IMG/VR virus record: IMGVR_UViG_3300021957_000387
Coordinates: 1-21,151 of that record
Length of the DNA: 21,151 nt
Source of the DNA: a virus
Strand: one strand, 5' to 3'
Part shown: in pieces, positions 2 through 16,649 of the stretch
How positions within the stretch are numbered: position 1 is the stretch's first letter
How the letters are laid out: every line of letters starts with the position of its first letter
Program-made: the position numbers and the translations under genes
The notes under the pieces: model-generated
The model's database searches: none
The model's input: only the letters and a program-made list of their open reading frames with translations
Told to the model about the DNA's origin: nothing

Positions 2-379
2 GGCGTACGTGGAGCTTCTAACAGCTTGTTCGCTGGTTCTTCTAGCCTGATGGTTGATGGCGTGATGATCCACGAGTTCCGCCATGTGTTTAACACTTCT
101 GGTGCTACTACTGGTGCTTCTGGCAACGCTGGCGCAGCTGGCTACAAGTGGGGCGCAGCAGCTAACGTAGTTGGCGGACGTGCTCTGTTCTGTGGTGCTC
201 AGGCTCTAGCCCTGGCTGACATCGGTCTGCCTGAAATGGTTGAAGATACTTTCGACTACGGCAACCAGTCTGGTATCTCGATCGGTAAGATCTTCGGAAT
301 GCGCAAGCCTAAGTACAACTCTGATATTGCAGGGTCTGTACAGGACTTCGGCGTTATCTGCTTAGATACTGCACAGTAA
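2..379 (+). CDS. Major capsid protein, N4-gp56 family (3' end only)
   Basis: This is the C-terminal part of a protein whose start lies before the window; the frame is open from base 2, so the TTG at 26 is not its real start. The visible 125 residues include a VMIHEFRHVF stretch, which resembles the conserved 'G...dGv.iHEhr.V' segment of N4-gp56-type major capsid proteins. A Gly/Ala-rich loop and a closing beta-rich segment (FDYGNQSGISIGKIFGMRKP) also fit that family. The protein forms the icosahedral shell. Its position just before adaptor-like genes and the strong terminator directly after its stop both fit a highly expressed capsid gene. The family call rests on recognition of the C-terminal third only; another HK97-fold coat family is the main alternative. 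Confidence 0.8.
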   Translation, partial: GVRGASNSLFAGSSSLMVDGVMIHEFRHVFNTSGATTGASGNAGAAGYKWGAAANVVGGRALFCGAQALALADIGLPEMVEDTFDYGNQSGISIGKIFGMRKPKYNSDIAGSVQDFGVICLDTAQ

Positions 380-815: not shown

Positions 816-1505
816 ATGTCAGTAACAGTTCAAAGCGTCATTGATAGAGCACAGACAGTACTACAAGACACTACTGGCGTTAGATGGCCAGTTGTTGGTG
901 AATTGGTTTTGTGGATTAACGACGCACAGCGTGAGATTGCTTTATTGAAGCCGGACGCTAGTGCGACTAACGAGACTATTACTCTAGCCACCGGCACGAA
1001 GCAGGCTATCCCTTCTGGTGGTAACCGCTTACTCAAGGTAATACGCAATATGTCTGCTGCCTCTAATGGCACAGGTAAGCGCGCAGTGCGGCTTGTAGAT
1101 GCAGAAGTTCTTAACGGACAAACCCCAGACTGGCACGACCCTACTGTTTCAGGTGATGCAGCGCACACTACTATTGTTAAGCACTACGTGTATGAAGAGC
1201 AAAACCCAAGAAACTTCTACGTGTACCCTGGTGTTGCTGGCAACGCTTTCTTAGAAATTGTTTATAGCTCCAACCCAACCACTGTTGCCCAGTCAGGTAA
1301 TTTATCGATCCCCGATATATTCGCAAACGCTGTTTTGAACTATGTGTTGTACATGGCTTACATGAAGGATGCTGAGTACGCGGGTAATCAACAGCGTGCT
1401 TCTAGCCACTTCCAGCTATTTACTGCCTCTGTTACTGGAAAAGGTCAGATTGATGCAGTGACTAATCCGAACATGGAACGAAGAGCACAACCGGCGGCGG
1501 TATAA
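816..1505 (+). CDS. Head-tail adaptor-like protein (DUF6682-like)
   Basis: A 229-residue protein that opens with a helical segment (VIDRAQTVLQD then RWPVVGELVLWINDAQREI). It continues with a beta region: 'G.KQAIPSGGNRLLKVIRN', a P-x-W motif (TPDWHD), and a 'NPRNFYVYPG' strand. A final helical bundle has the pattern AVLNYVLYMAYMKDAEYAGNQQRASSHF. This arrangement matches what I remember of the phage DUF6682/gp6-like adaptor group, which caps the portal and links head to tail. It is followed after 3 bases by a second adaptor-like gene, as expected for a neck-building operon. The family name is from memory and was not searched. Confidence 0.65.
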   Translation: MSVTVQSVIDRAQTVLQDTTGVRWPVVGELVLWINDAQREIALLKPDASATNETITLATGTKQAIPSGGNRLLKVIRNMSAASNGTGKRAVRLVDAEVLNGQTPDWHDPTVSGDAAHTTIVKHYVYEEQNPRNFYVYPGVAGNAFLEIVYSSNPTTVAQSGNLSIPDIFANAVLNYVLYMAYMKDAEYAGNQQRASSHFQLFTASVTGKGQIDAVTNPNMERRAQPAAV

Positions 1506-1508
1506 ACT

Positions 1509-2198
1509 ATGGCGATTTCTTATGAGGCGCTACTTCCCGAAGTGCTACCAATGGTCCCAGGCTGCCCTGATACGCTTATAGAAAGCAACATCAGATCAGC
1601 TGCCATTGAGTTCTGCGAGCGCACAGGCGCATATCAAGCTGAGCTAGACCCAGTTACTACCGTAGCTAACGTCTATGAGTACGATCTGGAAGCGCCTAAC
1701 GGAACCGCTGTTCACAAGATCATGTGGGCTACTTTCGATGGTAAAGACATTGAACCTATATCTACCCCTCTTCTCGAGCAGCGTAAACCTAACTGGAGAG
1801 ACGCTGATAACGCTGGTACGCCAGAGTATTACATACAGCAGAGTGCTTCTTTAGTTTGGCTAATTCCAACGCCTAACGTGACTATGGTCTCAAGCACCAT
1901 TATCCGTGCACAGCTGAAGCCTACACATACTTCTACTGCTTGCGACGAATCAATTATGAACGAGTACCGCGACGCTATTGTCAACGGAGCCTTGTTTAGA
2001 TTGCTGCGTATGCCTAGTCGTGATTGGTCTGACCTATCTGGTGCGCAGATCTATGGGTCTTTATTTGCAGAAACTATTACAAAAGCCGAACGTCGTGCAC
2101 GGCACGCTGACGAAGGTGTAGCTAGGAGAGTTAACTATGGCGGACTTAGCGGAGCTTGGAAAACAAGACGTAATCGATATGGCAGAGAGCGCGGATAA
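1509..2198 (+). CDS. Second head-tail connector / tail adaptor-like protein
   Basis: A 229-residue protein starting 3 bases after the previous gene. The N terminus is helical (LLPEVLPMVPGCPDTLIESNIRSAAIEFCERTG). A beta-sandwich-like middle holds 'EYDLEAPNGTAVHKI' and 'PEYYIQQSASLVWLIPTP'. A helical end (YRDAIVNGALFRLLRMPS, then LFAETITKAERRARHA) finishes in a basic tail (RRVNYGGLSGAWKTRRNRYGRERG). Helix-sandwich-helix is the usual plan of gp6- or P22 gp4-like adaptors and of short-tail tube subunits. Its last 62 bases overlap the start of the next gene in another frame, so the basic tail is encoded by doubly used DNA. The structural role is inferred from position and plan; the exact role (adaptor or nozzle) is unresolved. 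Confidence 0.6.
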   Translation: MAISYEALLPEVLPMVPGCPDTLIESNIRSAAIEFCERTGAYQAELDPVTTVANVYEYDLEAPNGTAVHKIMWATFDGKDIEPISTPLLEQRKPNWRDADNAGTPEYYIQQSASLVWLIPTPNVTMVSSTIIRAQLKPTHTSTACDESIMNEYRDAIVNGALFRLLRMPSRDWSDLSGAQIYGSLFAETITKAERRARHADEGVARRVNYGGLSGAWKTRRNRYGRERG

Positions 2199-2595
2199 CC
2201 CCGTCGAAGCTGATATTGATGAACACATAAATTGGGTTGCGCCCGCTATTGGCGAAATTTTAGAAGATAACCCAATGCTTACGTACACAGCAGCAGACGT
2301 GTACTTAGCGTGCAAGCAAGGAGCAGCAACACTGTGGGTAACTAAAGATGGAATGGTTGTCACCACAGGAGAAACGGATATTTATACGGGGCGAAGGACG
2401 ATGCTGGTATGGATTGCATGGGCCTGGAAACGAGGCATGAACTTGGTAGCAGTACACCAAGAATTCTTTAGGCAACAGGCAAGAGATTTAGGTTTTGTGA
2501 AGATGGAAGTTAGGTCAGCAGTACCTGAGCTGAAGGACTACATACTTTCACAAGGCTGGAAACTAGACACCATTGTTTATACGAGAGATGTGTAA
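2137..2595 (+). CDS. GNAT-fold-like virion-region protein
   Basis: A 152-residue protein whose start lies 62 bases inside the preceding gene. AGGAG (2124-2128), 8 bases before ATG 2137, supports this start. Residues about 55-150 read like a GNAT acetyltransferase fold: a strand pair (AATLWVTKDGMVVTT), then TGRRTMLVWIAWAWKRG, then a helix ending FFRQQARDLGF, then a last strand after SQGWKLDTIVYTRD. The usual acetyl-CoA loop (Q/R-x-x-G-x-G/A) is not clearly present, so catalysis is doubtful. GNAT-like proteins are known in the internal-protein region of T7-like phages, which suggests a packaged or assembly role here. It ends in a TAATG overlap with the next gene. Confidence 0.5.
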   Translation: MADLAELGKQDVIDMAESADNPVEADIDEHINWVAPAIGEILEDNPMLTYTAADVYLACKQGAATLWVTKDGMVVTTGETDIYTGRRTMLVWIAWAWKRGMNLVAVHQEFFRQQARDLGFVKMEVRSAVPELKDYILSQGWKLDTIVYTRDV

Positions 2596-3266
2596 TGGGT
2601 AGTAAACCAAAAAAACAAGATTATGAAGCATCAGATAGCGAGAAAGCGTCTGCTTCAGTAGCGATGGCTGAATATAAGTACTTTAAAGAAAAGTACGACC
2701 CATTGCTGCAAAAGATGCGCGACGAGTCCATGACTGACAAAGTTGATAAGACGCTGCGCGGGCGTGCAAACGCCGACACTATGCAGGCACTTACCAGCGG
2801 CCCTTCAGCACGGCAGGCGCTGACCGGTCAGGGTGCCGAAAATTTAGCCACTGGTTACCAAGGTCAGCTTGGGGCGGCAGATAAAACTGCTGAAGACATA
2901 CGAAACCAGAAGCAGATGAACGTACTGGGTATTGCAAGGAATCAGGCAGCGGACGCACAGTCTGGCATGGCACAAGCAGCCAACCTTGCAACCTCTGAAG
3001 CCTTAGAGCGAGCGAAAAATAATCAAACGGTTGCCAACGCAAAAATGACTGCTGCTGGCCAGATAGCAGGCGCTGCTCTTATGAAAGGTATGCAGAACAA
3101 AGCTACGTCAGGCACAAAAGAAGGCGCTATGCCAGAAGGACAAGCGGGACCAGGTGCCCCAGAGACAGTCAAGGGCTCTTTCTTCAGCCCCGTCGATGAT
3201 GCAGGTAACAAGGTAAGTGGTTTTGGTAACCGCCTTTCTTACTCCAACTTCTTCACGGGGGGTTAA
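2595..3266 (+). CDS. Putative small internal virion / DNA-ejection protein (copy 1)
   Basis: A 223-residue Ala/Gln/Lys-rich protein whose ATG shares one base with the upstream stop (TAATG). The N terminus is charged (MGSKPKKQDYEASDSEK). It continues as a long predicted helix from YKYFKEKYDPLLQKMRDE through the Ala/Gln-rich stretch to 'TAAGQIAGAALMKGM' at residues ~150-165. The last 55 residues are Gly/Pro-rich and probably disordered. Podovirus ejection proteins such as T7 gp14 and P22 gp7 have this Ala/Gln-rich helical character and a weakly hydrophobic end, and they lie between adaptor genes and larger internal proteins, as here. The next gene has the same plan. The role is inferred; there is no diagnostic motif. 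Confidence 0.5.
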   Translation: MGSKPKKQDYEASDSEKASASVAMAEYKYFKEKYDPLLQKMRDESMTDKVDKTLRGRANADTMQALTSGPSARQALTGQGAENLATGYQGQLGAADKTAEDIRNQKQMNVLGIARNQAADAQSGMAQAANLATSEALERAKNNQTVANAKMTAAGQIAGAALMKGMQNKATSGTKEGAMPEGQAGPGAPETVKGSFFSPVDDAGNKVSGFGNRLSYSNFFTGG

Positions 3267-3268
3267 AG

Positions 3269-3850
3269 ATGTATCAGATGCCAGACGGATATTCATACCG
3301 CGGTGGCTACGGCGGCGACTATGTAAATAATTTGCCCACCGTAAGTGACCCAGACAAAGCCTATGCGAACCTGACTCGTCAAGAATATTTAGATTACATT
3401 GCTAACTATCGTGATTTTGAAGAGCAGATGCTCGACGAAGCGCAAAATGATACTTCACTTATTGATTCTGCTCGAGAGAACGCAGGCATAGCATCTCAGT
3501 TAGCCGCTGGTATTTCTGGCCGTAATGCTAGTCGTTATGGCGCAGCACTTACTCCCGCCCAAATGCAGCAGCAGACCCGCGGTCTAGAACGAGCAAACAC
3601 CCTAGGTGCAATCCAGTCGGTGAACGACGCGACGATTGCACAGGACGAATTAAACCAGCGCAAACTTTCTGACCTTATCAACATTGGCCAAGGCGTGAAT
3701 CGTTCTTCACAAAGTCAATTAGGTTCGGCGGCTGCTAACGCAACACAGCGTAAAAATGCTTACGACTCAGCAAAGGCTGCATCAAAGGCTCAGACCTATA
3801 GCACCATAGGTAGTTTAGGCGCTATGGCAATTATGGCTTTTGCATTTTAA
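3269..3850 (+). CDS. Putative small internal virion / DNA-ejection protein (copy 2)
   Basis: A 193-residue protein preceded by a run of six G that can serve as a ribosome binding site. A Tyr/Gly-rich N terminus (YSYRGGYGGDYVNN) leads into a long Ala/Gln-rich helical region. That region holds EYLDYIANYRDFEEQMLDEA, GRNASRYGAALTPAQMQQQ and repeated Ala-Ser-Gln segments, and ends in a short hydrophobic tail (GSLGAMAIMAFAF). The hydrophobic end could touch or enter the host membrane, as proposed for T7 gp14-type ejection proteins. Its architecture parallels the preceding gene, which suggests duplication followed by strong divergence. An alternative is an assembly chaperone or scaffold-like helical protein. 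Confidence 0.55.
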   Translation: MYQMPDGYSYRGGYGGDYVNNLPTVSDPDKAYANLTRQEYLDYIANYRDFEEQMLDEAQNDTSLIDSARENAGIASQLAAGISGRNASRYGAALTPAQMQQQTRGLERANTLGAIQSVNDATIAQDELNQRKLSDLINIGQGVNRSSQSQLGSAAANATQRKNAYDSAKAASKAQTYSTIGSLGAMAIMAFAF

Positions 3851-3862
3851 AGAGAGAATTTT

Positions 3863-6046
3863 ATGGCACTTTTAGATGGTATTTTAGGTGGGGCGCAGTC
3901 AGTACAAGCCTATGGCCAGCAGCAATTCCAGAACAAACTAGCTCGAGATAAGTTCGACGAACAGAAGCGCCAGTACGATCAGTCGTATGCCCTGAATGTT
4001 GAGCAGTTCAACATCAATGACGTGTATAACAAAGACGCTAATAAACGCCTCAATGCAAAAGAAGCTCGGGACGCTAACAAAGCTGGAAAAGACGCTGTAA
4101 CAGCCACTAACGATAAGTACTACGAAACACTAGACATGGCTGGCTACATTTCACAAGACCGCATGAGCCTTAATTACAACAAGATAAATGAAGACATTGC
4201 CGCGGGAAGAAACAGCGATCGATTCGGTGCCGCAGAACAGATTATTTTAGGTTTTGCTACCCAATTTGGTAATTTGCCTGAAGGCTCAAAAGCAACCAGT
4301 GTAGAAGCACTTGATGGTGGTGGGTATGCCATCACCGTCACCAATGCTGATGGTTCAAAAGGTGTGGTGACCGAAGACGGGTCGAGTGGCCCAGAATCAA
4401 GCGTAGTACGCTTTCAACCTGGGCAACTGGGTAGACTTGCGAATACCCAGTTCCAACGCGAAGTTGCGACTAACACAAATAAGTTTGATCCCACTGTAAT
4501 GCGGACCAATCTAAATCTGATTGATGCGGATTCAAACAAACAAGCGGTTAATGATCAGGATCGCGATTTTTTAGCGGAGAAGCAATACGAGAAGCAGGTT
4601 GTTGATACTGCAAAACAAACAGGGAGCGTTCCACTAATCCGAGGCGTCGAGACCGCTATTGCTGATGGTGGTCCAGAAGTCACAAAAAAAATTGGCGATG
4701 ATCTCGGAGTTCCTAAGCCGCAGGCAACTGTAAAGACCTCTGCTGCTGAAGCTGATGATAGTGAAACTCCTGCAGATGATCCTATGAACACTTGGAGCCT
4801 CGACGACGTAGATCGCACCACGAGGGGTGGGCAGCTGATCGCATCTATAGAAGGTGTCTCCAAGCGGTCAGCCAACCCTAGAGGTGCAAGGGCTGTGACG
4901 CCCGAAAAGCAACGTGACAAGCTCATGGCGCGCAAAGCCGAACTGGAAAAGACAATTAGTAACGCGGAAGCTCTGCGTGCAAAGAGTCCCAACTTCAAGG
5001 TTGATCCTAAAAGAGACAATCTCCCCAAGAATAAAGCCGAGCTTGAGCAGATCAACGCGTACCTGGATAAAGACAAGCCAGCTCTCTTCGCAGCAGACCC
5101 TGCGACAGATACTGTAGCGGAACAAGCCGTAGGCAAAACAACTGAGCAGATTGAACAAGGTGTTAACGACGGAACTATTAAGGTTGATTCAGCCACAGTT
5201 CAGACAGTTGCCGAAAAACTTAAACGCGAAGGGATTAGAGAGTTACGGGATCTTAAACGTCTCGCAGCTAAAGATTCAGCTATAGCTCGTGCTGCCATTA
5301 TTGCCTCGTCTGAAGACATCAATATCCGGAAGCAGATGGCTACCGAAATGACGAACATTCTTGACACCCCATACAACAGCAAAAGTGTAAACAAAAAAGA
5401 CATGTTGTCGTTACAGGATAACGCCGCTGACCGTACTTATAAGTACCAAAAGCTCAACTATGAAATGGAGGTAAGGTTAGATGGGCAGCTAGAGGAAGCT
5501 AATGAAAACTGGCAAAAACTCACAGAAGCCGCTAACAAGTTTTATTTTGGAGAGGACGGCACAGATAAAAACTTCAATAGGGAAACCGCACAAGCTTTTG
5601 TTGCTTCTAGCGCACTAAGCAACATGATGATTTATCTAAAGCGCCCTGATCTACCGCAAGCTGTGAAAGATACCGCAATTGGCGGCGTAAACGACGCGGT
5701 CAGCAAAACGGTAGCTGCACTCGCTGGCGAGGAATCAGAAGGGATATTTTCGCGTGAGGCATTACTAGACTTTATGGGCCGTCGAGAAACAGGAGACTCT
5801 GTTGACCCTATGGATTTTGATTTATCTCGTGTTATCACCAACAACCCCGACCCTTCTAAGGCGACCAAGCTCTACTACACAGATGGAGACGGCAAGATCC
5901 TTGATGAAAACGCCGGTCTTCAGGAACTGAAGGATCTTTCTCCAGACCTCTATGCGCACGCTGTTTTAGCGGGCTCTATGAATCTTAGGAAGAACCCCCG
6001 TTACAAAAACGTCAACCCCCGAGTCTTCCGGTCGAGCGGGGAATAA
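3863..6046 (+). CDS. Putative large internal virion protein (727 residues)
   Basis: A mostly hydrophilic, helical protein with no signal peptide or clear membrane segment. The first 90 residues form a Gln/Asn/Lys-rich helix (QQQFQNKLARDKFDEQKRQY). Residues ~130-190 contain a small beta element (GGYAITVTNADGSKGVVTEDG). After an acidic low-complexity linker near residue 300 comes a coiled-coil block (DKLMARKAELEKTISNAEAL, then AELEQINAYLDK). The final third is helical and ends shortly after PDLYAHAVLAGSMNLRKNPRY. In size and position it resembles the middle ejection proteins of podoviruses (T7 gp15, P22 gp20), between the small and the giant ejection candidates. I recognise no enzyme motif. It ends 3 bases before the next start. 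Confidence 0.5.
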   Translation: MALLDGILGGAQSVQAYGQQQFQNKLARDKFDEQKRQYDQSYALNVEQFNINDVYNKDANKRLNAKEARDANKAGKDAVTATNDKYYETLDMAGYISQDRMSLNYNKINEDIAAGRNSDRFGAAEQIILGFATQFGNLPEGSKATSVEALDGGGYAITVTNADGSKGVVTEDGSSGPESSVVRFQPGQLGRLANTQFQREVATNTNKFDPTVMRTNLNLIDADSNKQAVNDQDRDFLAEKQYEKQVVDTAKQTGSVPLIRGVETAIADGGPEVTKKIGDDLGVPKPQATVKTSAAEADDSETPADDPMNTWSLDDVDRTTRGGQLIASIEGVSKRSANPRGARAVTPEKQRDKLMARKAELEKTISNAEALRAKSPNFKVDPKRDNLPKNKAELEQINAYLDKDKPALFAADPATDTVAEQAVGKTTEQIEQGVNDGTIKVDSATVQTVAEKLKREGIRELRDLKRLAAKDSAIARAAIIASSEDINIRKQMATEMTNILDTPYNSKSVNKKDMLSLQDNAADRTYKYQKLNYEMEVRLDGQLEEANENWQKLTEAANKFYFGEDGTDKNFNRETAQAFVASSALSNMMIYLKRPDLPQAVKDTAIGGVNDAVSKTVAALAGEESEGIFSREALLDFMGRRETGDSVDPMDFDLSRVITNNPDPSKATKLYYTDGDGKILDENAGLQELKDLSPDLYAHAVLAGSMNLRKNPRYKNVNPRVFRSSGE

Positions 6047-6049
6047 AGT

Positions 6050-9000
6050 GTGGCAGATGAAATCCTCCAAAACTTCTACGAGAATAATCTGTACGCTTTG
6101 CCCGATGACATGGGTGACGAAGGCGGTCCAAGTAATGCAGATATTGCAGCGGGCACTTTAGAAGACCCTATAGGCGTAATTGCACCAGATACGATTTCAG
6201 GCGCTTTTCGTGCGGGTATGGAGTCCGGTGCAGCGTCGTTAAATGCCGACATCGATTACTTCCAAGCCCTGTTCAACACAGCTATCGGTGATCAAGAGGC
6301 AGCAGAGGATGCTGTTAGCCGCGCTAGGTTTAACGAAGTCCAAGCTGCTATTCCCGTTTCCACAATGGAGACGTTCTCGGAATTTGTTGATGAGCCGACC
6401 ATTGAAGGCTTCTTCATGCAGATCGGCAAATCGACCGGCGAAATATTTCCCTCAGCTGTATCAAGTATCGCAAGCGGTGGTATTGGCGGTATCACAGCTG
6501 TCCTCGGTAAGACAGTACTCAGCAAAGGCGGTAAAGCTGTAGCTAACCGTATTGTAAAAGATGCATTAAAAAATACAGCTGAAGGTACAGCTGACGCCGC
6601 AGAAAAAGAACTCGCGCAGTCAGCGTGGGGCGTATTCAAAGCAGGCGCTTTTGTTGGCGCAGGTACATCAGAGTACGTACCACTAGCTGGTGGCAACTTG
6701 TCAGAAGCCCTTGAAGCTGGGCAAGACCTCAATGCAGATACAGCAGGTCGAGCAGCGCTGGTTGCAGCACCGCAAGCGCTACTTGGTGTTGGTGGCGAAG
6801 CAGCTATGTTGAAGTTGATCGGCAACGTCGCTAAGAAGCGCGCTGTCAGAGAAGGATCACTGTTTGGCAAGTTAGCCAAAGATATTAGTGGTACTGCTAT
6901 TAAAGGTGGCGTTATGGAAGGCGCTACTGAAGTTGCACAAGAAGGTATTGGTGTTCTTAACCGTATGGATATGGACGATACCTACACCGCCCAAGACGCG
7001 AAGATGCGTCTAGCACAGTCTGCATTTGCTGGTTTCTTTGGTGGTGGTGCGGCGGCTGGCGCTGGTGGAACCGTTGGTAGTATCTTCAGCCAAGCGAACA
7101 GCCTTGTAGAAAGAGGCCGTCAGGCAGAGGTCGATCAGCGAGTCAACGAAGAACAGTACGGTGACGAGGTATTCGGCGGGTACACGTCCCAAGAATCACA
7201 GAGTGATATTGCTGGGCAAATTGATGCAATGAATAACCCAACCAGCACCAAACAATCGGTCTGGATAGCGGGCCCCTCTCCTCAGTTCGGTGCCAAAGAA
7301 AACACAATTACTTCAGTAGAAACTGATTACAACGGGAGTCCTAAGAAAGCTTACTCGGCCTTTATCCCTGGACGAGGCACGGTCGTTTCTACCAGTGAAC
7401 AGATTGTCGCAGACGTAATTGCAGGCGAAGCATCAGATTCTATTCTTCAAGCAGCCCTTGGTTACAGCAGCGACAAGGTAGAGGGTGCAAATCTTGCCGT
7501 CGTAGTTACAGACAGCAGCGGCAGAGTAATTTCTGAAGAACTTACAACTGAACAGAATCAACCTGCAGCTATAGAATCTGCGAAGAAGCTAATGCCAGAA
7601 GGTGGTAGCTACGAAGTTATGTCAGCAGAAAAAGCGCTTGAAGGCCGTAAGAAGCGTGTCGAGAAAGAGCGCGGCCCAGTAGTTCGTCCGATGAATGACC
7701 AGGACTCTGAACAAGTCGATAAAGACATGGGCTTCGGTAGCAAGACTACTGGATTCGACGAAGGCGGCGGTATCTTTGAACCAGCGGTTACGAAGCTCAA
7801 AGAGTACGCCCCACGAAATACAGATAGAGAGTACGAGAACACCGACCCCACTCGTAAGGCTTTTGAAAAAGAGTTTGGCGATGAGATGAACATCGACTGG
7901 GACAGTGACTACTTCGGCGGCATGAGTGAAAGCTTGATGAAGGCGGCTGTTGCAGCTAAGAAGGCGAACCCTACTGCTCTGGTAACTATTGCTGAGGGCA
8001 AAGACGGCGCGTATGACTTAAACCTCGAGACCACCCCAGACACGGAAACTTTTGCGATTGGGGGTCAAGAGCAGAAGCTACCCATCGGCGAATTCTTATC
8101 GCAGTCAATAAAAGACGCAGACCGCGTTGCAAAGAACGATGACTTCAATAACAAAGACTCTGCTGAGGCTAAGGTCACAGTTGTTGATGAGACCGGTAAA
8201 GAGACGACAGCTATTCTGGCTGATCTAGTTAACGCTGGTCGGAGAATCCTACAGACACGCGAGGGTTCAAACTTTAATCAGGGCGGCCCCACTGAGTCTG
8301 CTGCCGCTGCATTCTCAGCAATAATGTCTGAGCTACAGCTCTCTAATTATGATGTTCGTGACCAAGCAACGGGTGAGTCCTTGTTGTCTATGGATCAGCA
8401 GCAGCTTAAAACTAGCACTGGTGGGTTACGCGCTGGTGGCACCAAACAGTCACCTCTCACCCTTGATCAAGTTCTGACTCAGACGCAGCCTACAGAAAAA
8501 ACACCAAAGTCATATACAGTCTCAGGGTATGATCAAGGCGGGCCGTTTGAATATGGCTTTGATACAAAAAAAGAAGCGAACGCAGCAAAAACCGATTTTG
8601 AAAATCGCGGCGCAAACGGCGTACGTATCACGGAAAACAACACCTACACTGATGGGACATTCACAGATCAAGAACAAGAAGCGGGCATAACCGCAGAAGA
8701 GGAAGTTCTTGAGAACGCCCGTCAGGAACTTGGAGATTTACCGCTCTCCGGTTTAAACATAGAAGCGGGCCCTGTTAAAAACAGGGGCTACTCATCCGCG
8801 AAGCCCAAGAGCAAAGGTGGTCGTAACCCAATGAACGCGACTTACCCAGCGGGCAACATTGGCCGCTTGGCCACGCAGGTCGCCTCCGCTCTGGTCAAAA
8901 AGCTCAGGCTACAAAAACCTGTCTCTATTCTTGGCGTAAAAGAACTGGCGCAAATGTCAGAGGCTAAGTTCAACGAGATGTTTACAGACCCCCGTGTAGC

Positions 9001-11575
9001 AGCAGCTGTGCGTGAGCAGATGAACGCCCTCCTAGACAACAACACCGCGTTAGGCCGATACATGGGCTTCAATGATGCGCATGTAATTCTTGTAGATAAC
9101 CGCTCGGACAATCAGCTTCAGACAGCCCTAACCACGGCTCACGAGCTGGGGCACGCGTTGATCCAAGAAGAGATGGCTGGATCGTTAGAAAACTCAGCAC
9201 TATATCGTCGACTAATTAACGACTTTGAAAAGGCGCGAGCCGCTAAAGATGCTCCTGCTGCATATCAAGATCCTAACAATGAGCTGGCTTTCGAAGAGTG
9301 GTATTCAGACCAAGTAGCAATCTACGCAAAGAACATATACCTGAAACAAACCCTACCAGCTAAGAACATGGCAGCTAGCCACTTTAAGAAAGTTGCAGAC
9401 AAGCTCGTGTCTATGTTCAAGAGTATGTCGCGAGAGATGCGCACTCGATTTGGTAAAGACGCACAGAGCCAACAGTTCACTGAGTATATGGACTCGCTCA
9501 CCGAGAACAAGCGCCGCTACTGGACTGCTGCGAAGAACAAGGTCGGTACGAAAGAAGCTACGTTCCAGCAGAAGGCTCTTGTCAGAGCTATTGAAGACGC
9601 AATGCCTAAGTCTAAGTTTGAGAAAGGTGTTGAGTCTCTAGCTCGATTAGTTAACGAAGTACTGAGTAATCCTACTGTGCGCAAAGCTACCCAGCTTGTT
9701 CGTACTGAGGACGGCGTACTGCGAACCATTAGCACCAAGATTGCAGACATGATGTATGTACCTGCTCAATCGGAAGGCAAAGGTTCAGACATGGGTTTCG
9801 TAAAGCGTAAAGCAGCGATTCGTAAGCGCATGATGAACGACGTGCGGAAGATTCTTGGGTCTGATTGGACTACGAAAGCAGCTACAGACACACTTGACCT
9901 CGCAAGAGATTCGGATATCTCGATCGAGCAACTAAGTGAATATGGTGAAGCTGGCGCTGATGCAATTAAGATACGAGAGTTCCTGAGCAAGCTGTATGAC
10001 AACTACATCTCGAAGACTCCAGGTAACACAATTGGTAAAAGAGATAACTATTTCCCAGTTGCCTTGGACCTCGCGAAGATTGCAGATGACCCAGAAGCCT
10101 TTGTGGGGTTGATGCTCAGCAAAGACTCTCAGATGACTGGAAGCCAGATACGTGACACCGTACACAAACTAGTCCAGCTGCAGAAACGCATAGTGGATGA
10201 AAACGAGATCAATGTTGATGCAACAGATCCATCAGCTGTGGCAGAAGCTGCTCGAGTATTTACAAACAACCTGAGTCCTACCGAACTAAAAGACTTCAGC
10301 TTACCTCCAGCGGAAGCTTTGCAGGAATATATACGCGACCAATCAACTCGTAACGAGTTCCTTCGTGCAACTCGAGCGCCTGACGGTACTGACCTTTTGC
10401 AGCAAGAACTCGACAAGTTGTCGCCTGTTGACAGAAAAGAAGTCGTCGCAATGCTAGAAAGACACATGGGCTATAGCCGCAAACCTATAGGCCCTAAGCT
10501 CCGAGCCGCGAACAGCTGGATGCAATTATTCCAGTGGGTCACGTTGCTTCCTCTCGCTACTGTGTCCTCAATTACGGAGTTGGGCGGAGCGGTACTAAAC
10601 GGCAAAGACTTTGACGCCTTTGGTATGGCGTGGAAGGCAATGAAGGACACGATCGAGAACCCCATAGAAGCCAAAGAACTAGGCGAAGATCTGGGCGTTA
10701 CCTCAGAGCGCACAATGGAAAACATGATGATGACCGACGCTGACCATGAGTACATGGACCCTAAAGCGCGCGAAATCGGCGATAAGTTCTTCCAAGTAAT
10801 TGGTCTTGATTGGTTTACCCGTTTCACACGAGAGTTCGCTTCTAACATGGGCGTACAGTTCATGTTGCGCCATGCAGTGAACGATAGTGGTAACCCACGA
10901 TCGGAGCGTTACCTAAGAGACCTGGGCGTGTCAGCGGCAGATATAAAAGCATGGGAAGCAGACGGCAGATCGTTTGACTCTGACGCAGGGCGTCGAGTTC
11001 AGGACGGCCTTACAAGATTCGTTGAAAGTTCAATGTTACGTCCGAACTCCGCAGAGCGCCCTTCATGGGCAAACGATCCCCGCTTCGCTTTGATCTGGCA
11101 GCTAAAAAGCTTCTTGTATTCATTCTCTAAGACTATTGGCGGCGGCATTATCCGCGAAGCCAAAGCGCGAGCGGCTGAACCAGGAATGACAGGCCTTGAA
11201 AAGCTAGGTGGTGTTGGACTTACTCTGGCGCTAGCTGGTGTCGCCTTCATGCCACTCGCCATGATCAGCCTCGAATTGCGCGAACTAGCTAAGTACCTGA
11301 TTGCAGGCGTACTCCCAGGCGTCAACCAGAGTGGTGGTAGATACTTCCGATCTGATCGTATGGACTGGAGTCAGTACATGACTGAGATATTTGATCGATC
11401 TGGTTTTAACGGCCCCATGTCAATTGCTACCAACATGATGAACGCCGACAAATGGGGAAGCACTCCACTCGCGCCATTACTAGGCCCAACTTACGACCTT
11501 GCAGAGTCAGCTGTATTGGATGGATTTGAAGTAATCCCCGATCGCATAATCCCTGGCTACAGCATCGTTTATTAA
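6050..11575 (+). CDS. Giant internal virion protein with HELGH zinc-metalloprotease domain
   Basis: A 1841-residue protein starting at GTG, with GGGGA (6038-6042) 7 bases upstream. The N-terminal 350 residues are rich in small and hydrophobic residues: about 121-157, and Gly/Ala-rich 319-346 around AFAGFFGGGAAAGAGG. This part also carries a 'GAT EVAQEG' motif often seen in large polyvalent phage proteins. Several small alpha/beta segments follow. Residues 1031-1035 are HELGH, the gluzincin zinc site, with 'AFEEWYSDQ' at 1080-1088 giving a likely third ligand, E1082 or E1083. The C terminus has hydrophobic stretches at ~1491-1516 and ~1719-1757 (starting LGGVGLTLALAGVAFMP). A 'RFVESSMLRP...WANDPRFALIWQLKSF' region between them looks conserved in marine podovirus giant proteins. 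A packaged protein ejected into the host, with protease activity, is the best reading; it occupies the position of T7 gp16 but carries no obvious transglycosylase motif. Confidence 0.7.
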   Translation: MADEILQNFYENNLYALPDDMGDEGGPSNADIAAGTLEDPIGVIAPDTISGAFRAGMESGAASLNADIDYFQALFNTAIGDQEAAEDAVSRARFNEVQAAIPVSTMETFSEFVDEPTIEGFFMQIGKSTGEIFPSAVSSIASGGIGGITAVLGKTVLSKGGKAVANRIVKDALKNTAEGTADAAEKELAQSAWGVFKAGAFVGAGTSEYVPLAGGNLSEALEAGQDLNADTAGRAALVAAPQALLGVGGEAAMLKLIGNVAKKRAVREGSLFGKLAKDISGTAIKGGVMEGATEVAQEGIGVLNRMDMDDTYTAQDAKMRLAQSAFAGFFGGGAAAGAGGTVGSIFSQANSLVERGRQAEVDQRVNEEQYGDEVFGGYTSQESQSDIAGQIDAMNNPTSTKQSVWIAGPSPQFGAKENTITSVETDYNGSPKKAYSAFIPGRGTVVSTSEQIVADVIAGEASDSILQAALGYSSDKVEGANLAVVVTDSSGRVISEELTTEQNQPAAIESAKKLMPEGGSYEVMSAEKALEGRKKRVEKERGPVVRPMNDQDSEQVDKDMGFGSKTTGFDEGGGIFEPAVTKLKEYAPRNTDREYENTDPTRKAFEKEFGDEMNIDWDSDYFGGMSESLMKAAVAAKKANPTALVTIAEGKDGAYDLNLETTPDTETFAIGGQEQKLPIGEFLSQSIKDADRVAKNDDFNNKDSAEAKVTVVDETGKETTAILADLVNAGRRILQTREGSNFNQGGPTESAAAAFSAIMSELQLSNYDVRDQATGESLLSMDQQQLKTSTGGLRAGGTKQSPLTLDQVLTQTQPTEKTPKSYTVSGYDQGGPFEYGFDTKKEANAAKTDFENRGANGVRITENNTYTDGTFTDQEQEAGITAEEEVLENARQELGDLPLSGLNIEAGPVKNRGYSSAKPKSKGGRNPMNATYPAGNIGRLATQVASALVKKLRLQKPVSILGVKELAQMSEAKFNEMFTDPRVAAAVREQMNALLDNNTALGRYMGFNDAHVILVDNRSDNQLQTALTTAHELGHALIQEEMAGSLENSALYRRLINDFEKARAAKDAPAAYQDPNNELAFEEWYSDQVAIYAKNIYLKQTLPAKNMAASHFKKVADKLVSMFKSMSREMRTRFGKDAQSQQFTEYMDSLTENKRRYWTAAKNKVGTKEATFQQKALVRAIEDAMPKSKFEKGVESLARLVNEVLSNPTVRKATQLVRTEDGVLRTISTKIADMMYVPAQSEGKGSDMGFVKRKAAIRKRMMNDVRKILGSDWTTKAATDTLDLARDSDISIEQLSEYGEAGADAIKIREFLSKLYDNYISKTPGNTIGKRDNYFPVALDLAKIADDPEAFVGLMLSKDSQMTGSQIRDTVHKLVQLQKRIVDENEINVDATDPSAVAEAARVFTNNLSPTELKDFSLPPAEALQEYIRDQSTRNEFLRATRAPDGTDLLQQELDKLSPVDRKEVVAMLERHMGYSRKPIGPKLRAANSWMQLFQWVTLLPLATVSSITELGGAVLNGKDFDAFGMAWKAMKDTIENPIEAKELGEDLGVTSERTMENMMMTDADHEYMDPKAREIGDKFFQVIGLDWFTRFTREFASNMGVQFMLRHAVNDSGNPRSERYLRDLGVSAADIKAWEADGRSFDSDAGRRVQDGLTRFVESSMLRPNSAERPSWANDPRFALIWQLKSFLYSFSKTIGGGIIREAKARAAEPGMTGLEKLGGVGLTLALAGVAFMPLAMISLELRELAKYLIAGVLPGVNQSGGRYFRSDRMDWSQYMTEIFDRSGFNGPMSIATNMMNADKWGSTPLAPLLGPTYDLAESAVLDGFEVIPDRIIPGYSIVY

Positions 11576-11587
11576 CAGGTAGTTACT

Positions 11588-11965
11588 ATGAGCATATTCA
11601 CAACATTACTTGGACCGGTTGCAGATTTAGGCAAAACATACTTGAGCAATCGCGCTGAAGAAAAGGCTGCCAAGCATCAGGCGAAAATTAAGGTCATTCA
11701 GAATGATGCCGACTGGGAAGCGAAGATGGCAGATGCTTCTAGTAACTCGTGGAAAGACGAGTTTTGGACTGTAATTTTAGCTGCACCAATATTTTTTGTA
11801 GGTTATGCAATAGCTGTAAATGATTTAACAGTTATCGATAGAGTAAAAGAAGCGTTTATCGCGCTAGATACATTACCGGAGTATTACCAATATTTATTGT
11901 TTATTGCCATCTCGAGTTCTTTCGGCATAAAAGGCGTAAGTAAAATTATGGAGTTGAAAAAATAA
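11588..11965 (+). CDS. Holin (3TM/GTA-holin-like family)
   Basis: A 125-residue protein with an amphipathic, charged N-terminal half, then 'NSWKDEFW' at 53-60 leading straight into a membrane helix (60-78, TVILAAPIFFVGYAIAV). A second helix follows at 99-117 (YYQYLLFIAISSSFGIKGV). The 'SWKDE...P' and 'P.YYQYLL......SFGI' patterns match the phage holin group annotated as 3TM holin for gene-transfer release. It would oligomerise in the inner membrane to let the endolysin out. The endolysin lies two genes downstream, and the intervening small membrane protein overlaps this gene's stop codon by one base (TAATG), indicating translational coupling. Confidence 0.75.
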   Translation: MSIFTTLLGPVADLGKTYLSNRAEEKAAKHQAKIKVIQNDADWEAKMADASSNSWKDEFWTVILAAPIFFVGYAIAVNDLTVIDRVKEAFIALDTLPEYYQYLLFIAISSSFGIKGVSKIMELKK

Positions 11966-12243
11966 TGGATGAGCAAGTTGCAAAACGCTTTGATAGGTTA
12001 GAAACCAAAATAGATAAACTTGTTGATGTTATGGCAAGTATGGCCCGTGTTGAAGAAAGGCTGGTAGGTCAGGATGCAAGACTAAAGAGGCACGAGTTTC
12101 GTCTCGACGCAAGCGAGAAAAAAATAGATGAAGTAGCCGAGGCGACGCAGACGAATAGCTTTGTCGCAAAAGTTGGAACAACGCTTGTTTCGACAATTTG
12201 GGCGGGGCTTATAGCCTACATTTTTTATCTTTTTAGGGATTAG
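11965..12243 (+). CDS. Tail-anchored coiled-coil lysis accessory protein (XhlA-like)
   Basis: A 92-residue protein with a heptad-rich N-terminal coiled coil (residues ~5-60, RFDRLETKIDKLVDVMASMA and further heptads) and one C-terminal membrane helix at 67-90. Only two residues follow the helix, so most of the protein would face the cytoplasm. XhlA-type lysis accessory proteins share this plan of coiled coil then membrane helix at about this size. It is translationally coupled to the holin and lies 2 bases before the endolysin. It may tune holin timing. An inner-membrane spanin subunit is less likely because the membrane segment is at the wrong end. Confidence 0.5.
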   Translation: MDEQVAKRFDRLETKIDKLVDVMASMARVEERLVGQDARLKRHEFRLDASEKKIDEVAEATQTNSFVAKVGTTLVSTIWAGLIAYIFYLFRD

Positions 12244-12245
12244 TA

Positions 12246-12596
12246 GTGAAAGAGTTTAAGTACTTTAAAAAAGAAGACTTTGATTGCCAACAGACTGGTA
12301 ATAACGAGATGCAAGAGGATTTTATCCACATTCTCGATCAGTTGAGAGCTGCCTGTGGCTTTCCATTTTATATAACTTCAGGCTATCGCTGCCCAAACGG
12401 CCACAGTCTTGAGTTGGCAAAAGCAAAACCAGGCACCCATACCCAAGGGATCGCCGCAGACATTGCTGTAACAGGTGGTGTACAAAGAAGAGCTATCGTA
12501 AATCATGCTCTAGCAATGGGTATGTCTGTCGGAGTAGCAAAAACTTTTGTTCACGTAGACATTAGAAAGACAACACCTGTACTTTGGTGTTATTAA
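12246..12596 (+). CDS. Endolysin: M15 family D,D/L,D-peptidase (Peptidase_M15_3-like)
   Basis: A 116-residue single-domain enzyme starting at GTG. The zinc site is clear: SGYRCP at 45-50, THTQGIAAD at 64-72 (ligands H65 and D72), and FVHVD at 101-105 (ligand H103). These are the marks of VanY/YcbK-type M15 peptidases, which cut peptide cross-links or stem peptides in peptidoglycan. There is no signal peptide or membrane segment, so export must depend on the holin encoded upstream. The length is normal for a compact phage M15 domain; there is no separate wall-binding domain. The gene ends with two stop codons in a row (TAA TAG) before the AT-rich gap. Confidence 0.85.
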   Translation: MKEFKYFKKEDFDCQQTGNNEMQEDFIHILDQLRAACGFPFYITSGYRCPNGHSLELAKAKPGTHTQGIAADIAVTGGVQRRAIVNHALAMGMSVGVAKTFVHVDIRKTTPVLWCY

Positions 12597-14771: not shown

Positions 14772-16649
14772 ATGGCGGTTGTTTTTAGTAACAATGCAGC
14801 GTCTACATTACAGTCGGGGATAAACTCTTCGGCGACGAGCATAACGCTACTTAGTGGCGCTAACTTCCCATCGCTCTCGGGTTCGGACTACACGTACGTA
14901 ACACTTGAGGATGTGAATGGCCACCGAGAAATCGTTAAGGCTACAGCTCGTAGTGGCAACACTCTCACGATTGTGCGTGCACAGGACGGTACGTCTGCGC
15001 GTGCATATATCGCGGGAGATAAATGTGAGCTGCGTCTAACTGCTGCGCTACTTAATGAAGTAGCACAACAAGCGGACACTGATACCAACACCACTTATAC
15101 AGCTGGTACTGGCCTGTCGCTGACTGGAACTCAGTTTGCAAACACAGCTCCTGACCAGACCGTCTCGCTGACAGGCGCGGGTGCTGCCACTATAACTGGT
15201 ACATATCCTAACTTTACGATTACCACTACTGATACCAATACAACTTACAGTATCCAAGACGGGCAGCTTTCGCAGAACAACTTTACAAATGCGGATCACA
15301 CTAAGCTAAATGCTATCGAGGCGAACGCTACTGCTGACCAGACTGATGCAGAGATAAAAACAGCTTACGAAAACAATACTGACACTAACGAGTTTAGTGA
15401 CGCAGAGAAAACTAAGCTGGCAGGCATCGAGGCGAACGCTACTGCTGACCAGACTGATGCAGAGATTAGAGCGGCCGTAGAAGCAGCTACTGACTCAAAT
15501 GTTTTTACTGATGCGGATCACACTAAGTTAAATAGTCTTGAGACAGGTGCTACTGCTGACCAGACTGATGCAGAGATTAGAGCAGCCGTAGAAGCAGCTA
15601 CTGACTCAAATGTTTTTACTGATGCGGACCACACTAAGTTAAATGGTATTGCTAATAATGCTAATAACTACGTGTTGCCATTTACCGATAACTCGTCGAA
15701 CTGGAACGTAGCGTTTGGCTGGGGTAATCACGGCGCAGCAGGCTATCTGACGTCGCACCAGTCACTTAGCGGCCTTGCTTCAGAAAGTTATGTTAATACA
15801 CAAGTTAGCAACCTTGTTGATTCAGCCCCAGGTACGCTGAATACGTTGAATGAGTTGGCCGCGGCTTTAGGGGATAATGCTAACTTTAGCACTACGGTGA
15901 CTAATAGCCTTGCTTCGAAGCTACCATTAGCTGGTGGTACATTGACGGGCGATTTAACAGTTAACTCTACAGGGTTTATTAAGTTACCTGTGGGTACGAC
16001 TGCACAGCGTTCTTCATCTCCTGCAAAAGGGATGATTCGTTTTAACTCTACGACGGGTAAGTTAGAACAGTACAGCACCGCATGGTCCGACGTAGGTAGT
16101 GCTGCTGACTTTAGGCTGAATACGTTTACTGGTAATGGCTCTACTACTGCTTACACCCTGACAACGAATCCTGTTGAAGACAATACGCTGGTCTATATAG
16201 ACGGCGTGTATCAGAACAAATCTAGCTACTCGATCGTAAATAACATTCTTACTTTTTCTGCCGCACCCCCAAATGGTACAGCGATCGAGATTACTGCGGC
16301 TACTGCAGCCCCAGTTGAAGCTAGCACTGAGTTTAAGCTAAGCCAGTTTTCTGGCAACGGCTCAGCAACTACGTTCACGCTCTCTGCACAAACTCCAGAG
16401 AACAACACGAACGTGTATATCGACGGAGTTTATCAGTCAAAAAGTAACTACTCAGTTAGTGGTACAACGCTAACGTTTACTACTGCTCCACCGGCTGGTA
16501 CATCGATAGAAGTCATGGCCGCTCACGCTGTAGTAGTTAGCGTAAGTGTTCCTGACGATGGGAGCGTGACCAACGCAAAACTTGACAGCGTCTTAGCACA
16601 AAGAATTGTAGATCTAGAAGACGAAATTTTACTTAATTTAGGAGTATAG
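14772..16649 (+). CDS. Long tail fibre protein
   Basis: A 625-residue modular fibre. Residues 1-98 are an N-terminal attachment-type domain (FSNNAASTLQSGINSSATSI; IVRAQDGTSARAY). After a short beta region, residues 171-293 hold three 37-residue repeats plus a partial fourth ('ATADQTDAEI' motif), typical of trimeric fibre shafts. Then come a 'WGNHGAAGYLTS' segment, an 'LNTLNELAAALGDNANF' helix-loop, and 'LPLAGGTLTGDLTV'. Two similar domains at 447-520 and 521-590 follow, each with YIDGVYQ. The final 25 residues are a heptad-like helix (LAQRIVDLEDEILLNLGV) that may drive trimer formation. No chaperone or endosialidase cleavage domain is visible. It probably carries or connects the smaller fibre proteins encoded after it. 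Confidence 0.75.
   Translation: MAVVFSNNAASTLQSGINSSATSITLLSGANFPSLSGSDYTYVTLEDVNGHREIVKATARSGNTLTIVRAQDGTSARAYIAGDKCELRLTAALLNEVAQQADTDTNTTYTAGTGLSLTGTQFANTAPDQTVSLTGAGAATITGTYPNFTITTTDTNTTYSIQDGQLSQNNFTNADHTKLNAIEANATADQTDAEIKTAYENNTDTNEFSDAEKTKLAGIEANATADQTDAEIRAAVEAATDSNVFTDADHTKLNSLETGATADQTDAEIRAAVEAATDSNVFTDADHTKLNGIANNANNYVLPFTDNSSNWNVAFGWGNHGAAGYLTSHQSLSGLASESYVNTQVSNLVDSAPGTLNTLNELAAALGDNANFSTTVTNSLASKLPLAGGTLTGDLTVNSTGFIKLPVGTTAQRSSSPAKGMIRFNSTTGKLEQYSTAWSDVGSAADFRLNTFTGNGSTTAYTLTTNPVEDNTLVYIDGVYQNKSSYSIVNNILTFSAAPPNGTAIEITAATAAPVEASTEFKLSQFSGNGSATTFTLSAQTPENNTNVYIDGVYQSKSNYSVSGTTLTFTTAPPAGTSIEVMAAHAVVVSVSVPDDGSVTNAKLDSVLAQRIVDLEDEILLNLGV
15282..15653 (+). repeat. 111-base tandem repeats in the long fibre gene
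   Basis: Full units lie at 15282-15392, 15393-15503 and 15504-15614, with a partial unit after 15615. Each encodes 37 residues starting F-T/S-D/N-A-D/E. Bases 15438-15533 and 15549-15644 differ at only two visible positions over 96 bases, so the last duplication is recent or kept uniform by recombination. Confidence 0.85.
16110..16532 (+). repeat. Duplicated ~70-residue YIDGVYQ domain in the long fibre
   Basis: Two consecutive domains start at residues 447 and 521 (F-R/K-L, then F-T/S-GNGS). Both carry YIDGVYQ, K-S-x-Y-S and 'AP P-x-GT-x-IE' at matching spacing, with more than half of aligned residues identical by eye. The two are probably small beta-sandwich domains that arose by duplication. 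Confidence 0.7.

Follow-up and report, generated by a model that had tools for sequence, protein, structure and literature searches.

A giant phage protein that is very probably a gp16-type ejection protein with a zinc protease domain

The question raised by this locus is why a 1841-residue protein encoded among the late genes of a phage should carry an HExxH zinc-protease motif, and at what stage of infection such a site would be used. The window, the whole 21,151-base virus record that was analysed, is probably a fragment. The giant gene is present as the earlier note described it, a single ORF on the + strand at 6050..11575, which opens with GTG and is separated by 3 bases from the stop codon of the upstream gene. 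Gene annotation of the window places it in a phage late-gene neighbourhood. On its 5' side, also on the + strand, are the C-terminal part of a major capsid protein (2..379; PF13252, 1.8e-12; phrog_334, major head protein), an adaptor of the SU10 adaptor family (816..1505; PF24175, 1.7e-34) and a second adaptor-family protein (1509..2198; PF24175, 4.2e-11; phrog_437, 2.3e-34), followed by genes for proteins of 223, 193 and 727 residues. A 152-residue gene at 2137-2595, acetyltransferase-like by eye, shares 62 bases with the ORF of the second adaptor; annotated acyl- or acetyltransferases also occur near the virion genes of Microcystis phage Mae-Yong and BcepIL02. On the 3' side, an M15-type endolysin (12246..12596, + strand; PF08291, 6.6e-10; phrog_894) is adjoined by two small proteins with hydrophobic stretches (11588-11965 and 11965-12243), which together likely form a lysis cassette. 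Further downstream, a 625-residue protein at 14772-16649 is a probable tail-fibre, whose gene contains three repeats spaced 111 bases apart at 15282-15638 that are 72-74% alike.

The 193-, 727- and 1841-residue proteins form a small, medium and giant trio 3' of the capsid and adaptor genes, with the endolysin lying outside it, and the same order is kept in 26 of 27 loci. A gene for 515-1002 residues is found immediately 5' of the giant gene in all 27 loci tested, and one for 191-316 residues lies one position further upstream, in the gp14-like position, in 26 of them. This order matches that of genes 14-15-16 in T7 and of EP3-OEP-TEP in PhiM1 (204, 904 and 1263 residues). The 193-residue protein (3269..3850, + strand) would be the positional counterpart of T7 gp14, and the 727-residue protein (3863..6046, + strand) that of gp15, the octameric ejection protein. 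Since sequence similarity of these two proteins to T7 gp14 and gp15 and to PhiM1 EP3 and OEP is undetectable, their roles as partners are assigned from gene order and size. A tblastn search of the 727-residue protein against phages gave zero matches.

The identity of the giant protein itself is indicated by its C-terminal part, residues 1328-1841 (10031..11572), which is predicted to be an all-helical ejection-protein hub. A Foldseek search with the AlphaFold2 model of residues 946-1841 matches chain A of PDB entry 8VB2 with an E-value of 3.6e-6 and a probability of 1.00, the next match being at 0.3; this chain is the tetrameric ejection protein (TEP, gp48) of phage PhiM1 (PMC11440229). When the C-terminal part is compared, profile against profile, with 13 PhiM1-type ejection proteins, P is 2.3e-13 over 390 columns (residues 1414-1841), and 6.4e-10 over 480 columns in the opposite direction. 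For the controls, one reversed and eight with shuffled columns, P lies at 0.36-0.96. The hub profile is not significantly similar to the single T7 gp16 sequence when compared directly (P=0.19), whereas the PhiM1-type profile matches T7 gp16 at P=2e-7 over 322 columns, so by these profiles the connection of the hub to T7 gp16 runs through the PhiM1-type proteins. PDB sequences were searched with profiles of the zincin, of the hub and of both together, and nothing significant was returned. Among cultured phages, tblastn ties residues 1453-1841 to KPP25 ORF088, tf gp51, phiA008 (gp66) and the giant protein of Microcystis phage Mae-Yong1326-1, and a genome scan with the hub profile adds three bacterial contigs. 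The annotations of KPP25 ORF088 and tf gp51 list both among the structural proteins of the virion, and it is on such homology that we infer the 1841-residue protein to be a virion protein. The earlier comparison with the giant ejection proteins of T7-type phages is therefore borne out by the homology of the C-terminal half to gp16-type proteins.

The protein had also been described as hydrophobic at both ends. This holds at the C-terminal end for one segment, residues 1721-1739 (11210..11266), which is uncharged, has a hydropathy of 2.02 and is a plausible membrane helix; a similar peak is present in relatives, and a second peak in this protein, at residues 1497-1515, is marginal (1.38). It does not hold at the N-terminal end, where residues 46-400 have a GRAVY of -0.05 and no 19-residue window above 1.4. 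The description of this part as rich in Gly and Ala, which make up 30% of it, is correct. The conserved N-terminal region, residues 45-400 (6182..7249), has a mean identity of 34-43% in distant relatives over residues 61-360. It gave zero matches to T7 gp14, gp15 and gp16 and to the PhiM1 proteins, and its similarity to the N-terminal domain of N4 is not significant. A second conserved segment follows at residues 400-545 (7247..7684), and its counterpart was recovered separately at residues 649-835 of a 3275-residue relative encoded by ORF 2429-12253 of a Parendozoicomonas haliclonae contig (L053). That relative also has a weak NADAR-type match shortly before its zincin (PF08719, E=0.0014, below cut-off). 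Residues 546-940 (7685..8869) form a variable, indel-rich linker, with identities of 11-25% in distant relatives, about 150 additional residues in one relative (L006), and dN/dS of 0.12-0.35 (Nei-Gojobori, four close relatives), the top values being those of L003 and L006.

The putative zincin domain lies between the linker and the hub, at residues 946-1130 (8885..9439). The HELGH site of the earlier note is found at residues 1031-1035 (9140..9154), with H1031 and H1035 as predicted zinc ligands and E1032 as the predicted general base, and is followed by FEEWYSDQ at residues 1081-1088 (9290..9313). Relatives collected in three IMG/VR scans fall into close (66-90% identity) and distant (about 24-45%) groups. 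In the first alignment, each of the 24 relatives that cover the site has both HE[LIV][GA]H and FEEWY[SA]D, and in the alignment of 25 sequences the sole invariant columns are H1031, E1032, H1035, F1081, E1082, E1083, W1084, Y1085 and D1087. This alignment was extended to 29 sequences with Aeromonas phage phiA008 and three bacterial contigs (Motiliproteus coralliicola, an Acidobacteria MAG and Parendozoicomonas haliclonae), many of the relatives being only 22-45% identical over the zincin. Retention of HELGH in homologues had been set beforehand as a refutation test, and H1031, E1032, H1035 and E1083 are invariant in all 29, while E1082 is replaced by Asp or Ser in three and D1087 by Asn in one. 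Of the two glutamates named earlier as a possible ligand, E1083 is accordingly the predicted third zinc ligand, because it never varies and E1082 does; D1087 would be a second-shell residue. The E-x-x-[SA]-D pattern corresponds to ExxSD, the motif found in the glutamate helix of thermolysin and other gluzincins.

The same columns bear on whether this is a zinc site at all. A chance HELGH in a structural protein would agree with the lack of a significant Foldseek match to a solved fold. However, a protein with only eight His residues, as here, should contain 0.003 HExxH motifs at random, and the site and ExxSD are invariant among sequences that are 22-30% identical; conservation refutes such a coincidence, which has a negligible probability. 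A zinc-binding domain with a purely structural or docking role, and no proteolysis in infection, is a very unlikely explanation. The sections available of the N4 cryo-EM study (PMC12633501) describe an HExxH domain without reporting an activity for it, but a structural site would not need the general base, and E1032 is invariant in 29 of 29 together with all ligands. The zincin has a dN/dS of 0.018-0.070, close to the 0.028-0.042 of hub residues 1450-1841 (Nei-Gojobori, four close relatives in each case), and judged by these ratios purifying selection on it is strong. A strongly selected catalytic site of gluzincin type is thus supported at the sequence level.

The fold around this site is likely, though not proven, to be that of a zincin. 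The AlphaFold2 model of residues 946-1195, built from 17 sequences, has a mean pLDDT of 75, mostly 75-90 in the core, and a pTM of 0.70. Three strands come first in it (residues 958-962, 1002-1006 and 1011-1015), the HExxH helix follows at 1022-1043, and the glutamate helix comes last, at 1080-1097; the same order of elements is present in the model of residues 946-1841. Zincins of phages have been described with this succession of elements (PMC5512222). The gluzincin fold that had been expected around HELGH is therefore seen in the predicted order of elements, but it was not recovered by Foldseek among solved structures, where no zincin is significant (best zincin E about 0.8-1.3) and the matches to 4l7a, 7z5g and 7z5u are weak. 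In BFVD the top matches are uncharacterised phage proteins (1.5e-6 and 3e-4), and an entry named 'large polyvalent protein associated domain' ranks fourth (E=0.013). Peptidase_M78 (IrrE/ImmA type) is the commonest Pfam match, in 9 of 17 members; membership of that family was rejected, since the score is 17.3 bits against a curated cut-off of 22 (best E 0.0017). A genome scan with the zincin profile gave zero matches.

In PhiM1 TEP and T7 gp16, which share the homologous hub (T7 through the PhiM1-type profile) and the third place in the ejection trio, an enzymatic module likewise lies N-terminal to or inside the hub region. The corresponding place is taken by an endolysin-like domain in PhiM1, a lytic transglycosylase in T7 and the zincin in the present family, whose member here, at 1841 residues, is longer than PhiM1 TEP (1263) and T7 gp16 (1318). 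The proposal that the protease stands in for the transglycosylase nevertheless fails for the family as a whole, because some relatives add muralytic modules and keep the zincin. Two of them (L016 and L017) have an N-terminal phage lysozyme (PF00959) and the zincin in one chain, and a third (L022) has an N-terminal transglycosylase-type virion module (phrog_873, phrog_7182). In phiA008 and in L052 the zincin shares the chain with an SNase nuclease module. The zincin is thus retained whether the N-terminal module is absent or is of the lysozyme, transglycosylase or SNase type. HExxH also occurs in the giant proteins of KPP25, phiA008 and Mae-Yong, with FDEWFAD in phiA008 and EWAAE in Mae-Yong in place of FEEWYSDQ; the Mae-Yong1326-1 protein has two HExxH motifs, at residues 954 and 1329. 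Since the hub relative of phage tf has no HExxH, not every hub protein requires the zincin.

Two groups of known phage proteins resemble this arrangement. The polyvalent proteins of Iyer et al. 2017 (PMC5512222) are likewise giant products of late regions with an embedded HExxH and a downstream Glu, and zincins are the commonest domain of such proteins in phages and plasmids. They combine at least two unrelated domains with different activities in one chain, whereas the zincin is the sole enzymatic domain recognised in the 1841-residue copy, where LPD and the other listed polyvalent-protein domains were not found; relatives add lysozyme, nuclease or, in Mae-Yong1326-1, LPD1. The N4 virion RNA polymerase, gp50 (PMC12633501), is an ejected giant encoded last in a three-gene ejection set, as proposed here, and its HExxH domain, C1, precedes a large helical region at the C-terminal end, as in the 1841-residue protein. 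It differs in its RNA polymerase domain, no T7-type counterpart of which was found in the 1841-residue protein by Pfam, PHROGs and NCBIfam scans, and in lacking the E-x-x-[SA]-D motif. Against nine divergent N4-type sequences, neither the zincin with C1 (P=0.014) nor the hub with C2 (P=0.27) gave significant similarity, and both homologies were rejected. In one relative (L051, ORF 6227-11971), residues 275-673 of the N-terminal region weakly match phrog_2206, 'virion RNA polymerase', at 2.2e-6, which the family profile did not reproduce against N4. A separate comparison, run with no control, of PhiM1-type ejection proteins (L059-L080) with N4 C2 (L041, L081-L088) gives P=1.3e-5 over 96 columns; the match falls in the stretch before the hub, and a link of gp16-type proteins to N4 C2 is possible.

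The conserved site, the homology of the hub and the T7 14-15-16 gene order together make it very probable that the 1841-residue protein belongs to a gp16-type ejectosome and carries a zinc protease, and that a gp16-type ejection protein here has a real zincin site can be held with high confidence. From these comparisons we infer packaging, ejection, zinc binding and proteolysis. The protein would be the tetrameric, gp16-type member of a three-protein DNA ejectosome in a short-tailed phage, with its C-terminal third as the hub. It would be stored in the capsid above the portal, unfold through the tail together with the 193- and 727-residue partners, and refold in the envelope or at the inner membrane, where the zincin, with H1031, E1032, H1035 and E1083 and with D1087 in the second shell, would become active. 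The protease would probably enter the host cell along with the viral DNA, and its use in active form during or after ejection is somewhat favoured.

Cleavage by the zincin of its own chain or of the 193- and 727-residue partners, inside the capsid and before ejection, would agree with the position of the domain next to a long variable linker and has a parallel in P1 DdrB, which has a C-terminal zincin and is reportedly processed before packaging (PMC5512222). The N4 virion RNA polymerase, with its HExxH domain, is packaged uncleaved (Iyer et al., PMC5512222), so processing before packaging is not general, and maturation during assembly is an unlikely account here. The likeliest use is proteolytic processing of the ejected proteins, which we put at about an even chance; a cut in the linker may free the N-terminal modules from the hub, or the channel may be remodelled or dismantled. 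The slow evolution of the zincin, and its retention whatever cargo sits at the N-terminal end, favour an unchanging task in the processing of the ejected machinery. Both autoprocessing and attack on the host have been proposed for the zincins of polyvalent proteins (PMC5512222), and the SNase and LPD1 modules that relatives add to the chain would fit an ejected zincin that cleaves an envelope or defence factor of the host, in the periplasm, inner membrane or cytoplasm, at the onset of infection. The very low dN/dS and the constancy across N-terminal modules resemble a core function rather than an arms-race effector, and this host-directed use is only a tentative second to the processing of ejected proteins.

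Enzymes in gp16-type ejection proteins have so far been described as peptidoglycan hydrolases, and the terms 'protease', 'peptidase' and 'metallo' are absent from a 2022 review of ejection proteins. That ejected proteins of phages may contain HExxH domains has been proposed before, for polyvalent proteins and for the N4 virion RNA polymerase; what is new is a zincin on an ejection protein of the T7 gp16 lineage, conserved across a family. The combination of a gp16-lineage hub with a gluzincin was not found in the literature searched, whose coverage leaves out most subscription journals. It is doubtful, yet conceivable, that in a whole podophage lineage the gp16-type ejection protein delivers a zinc protease that attacks an envelope or defence protein of the host just as infection begins, while muralytic and nuclease modules are exchanged at the N-terminal end of that chain. 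With this family, the long-standing question of what HExxH domains do in ejected phage proteins becomes testable on a compact, non-polymerase protein.
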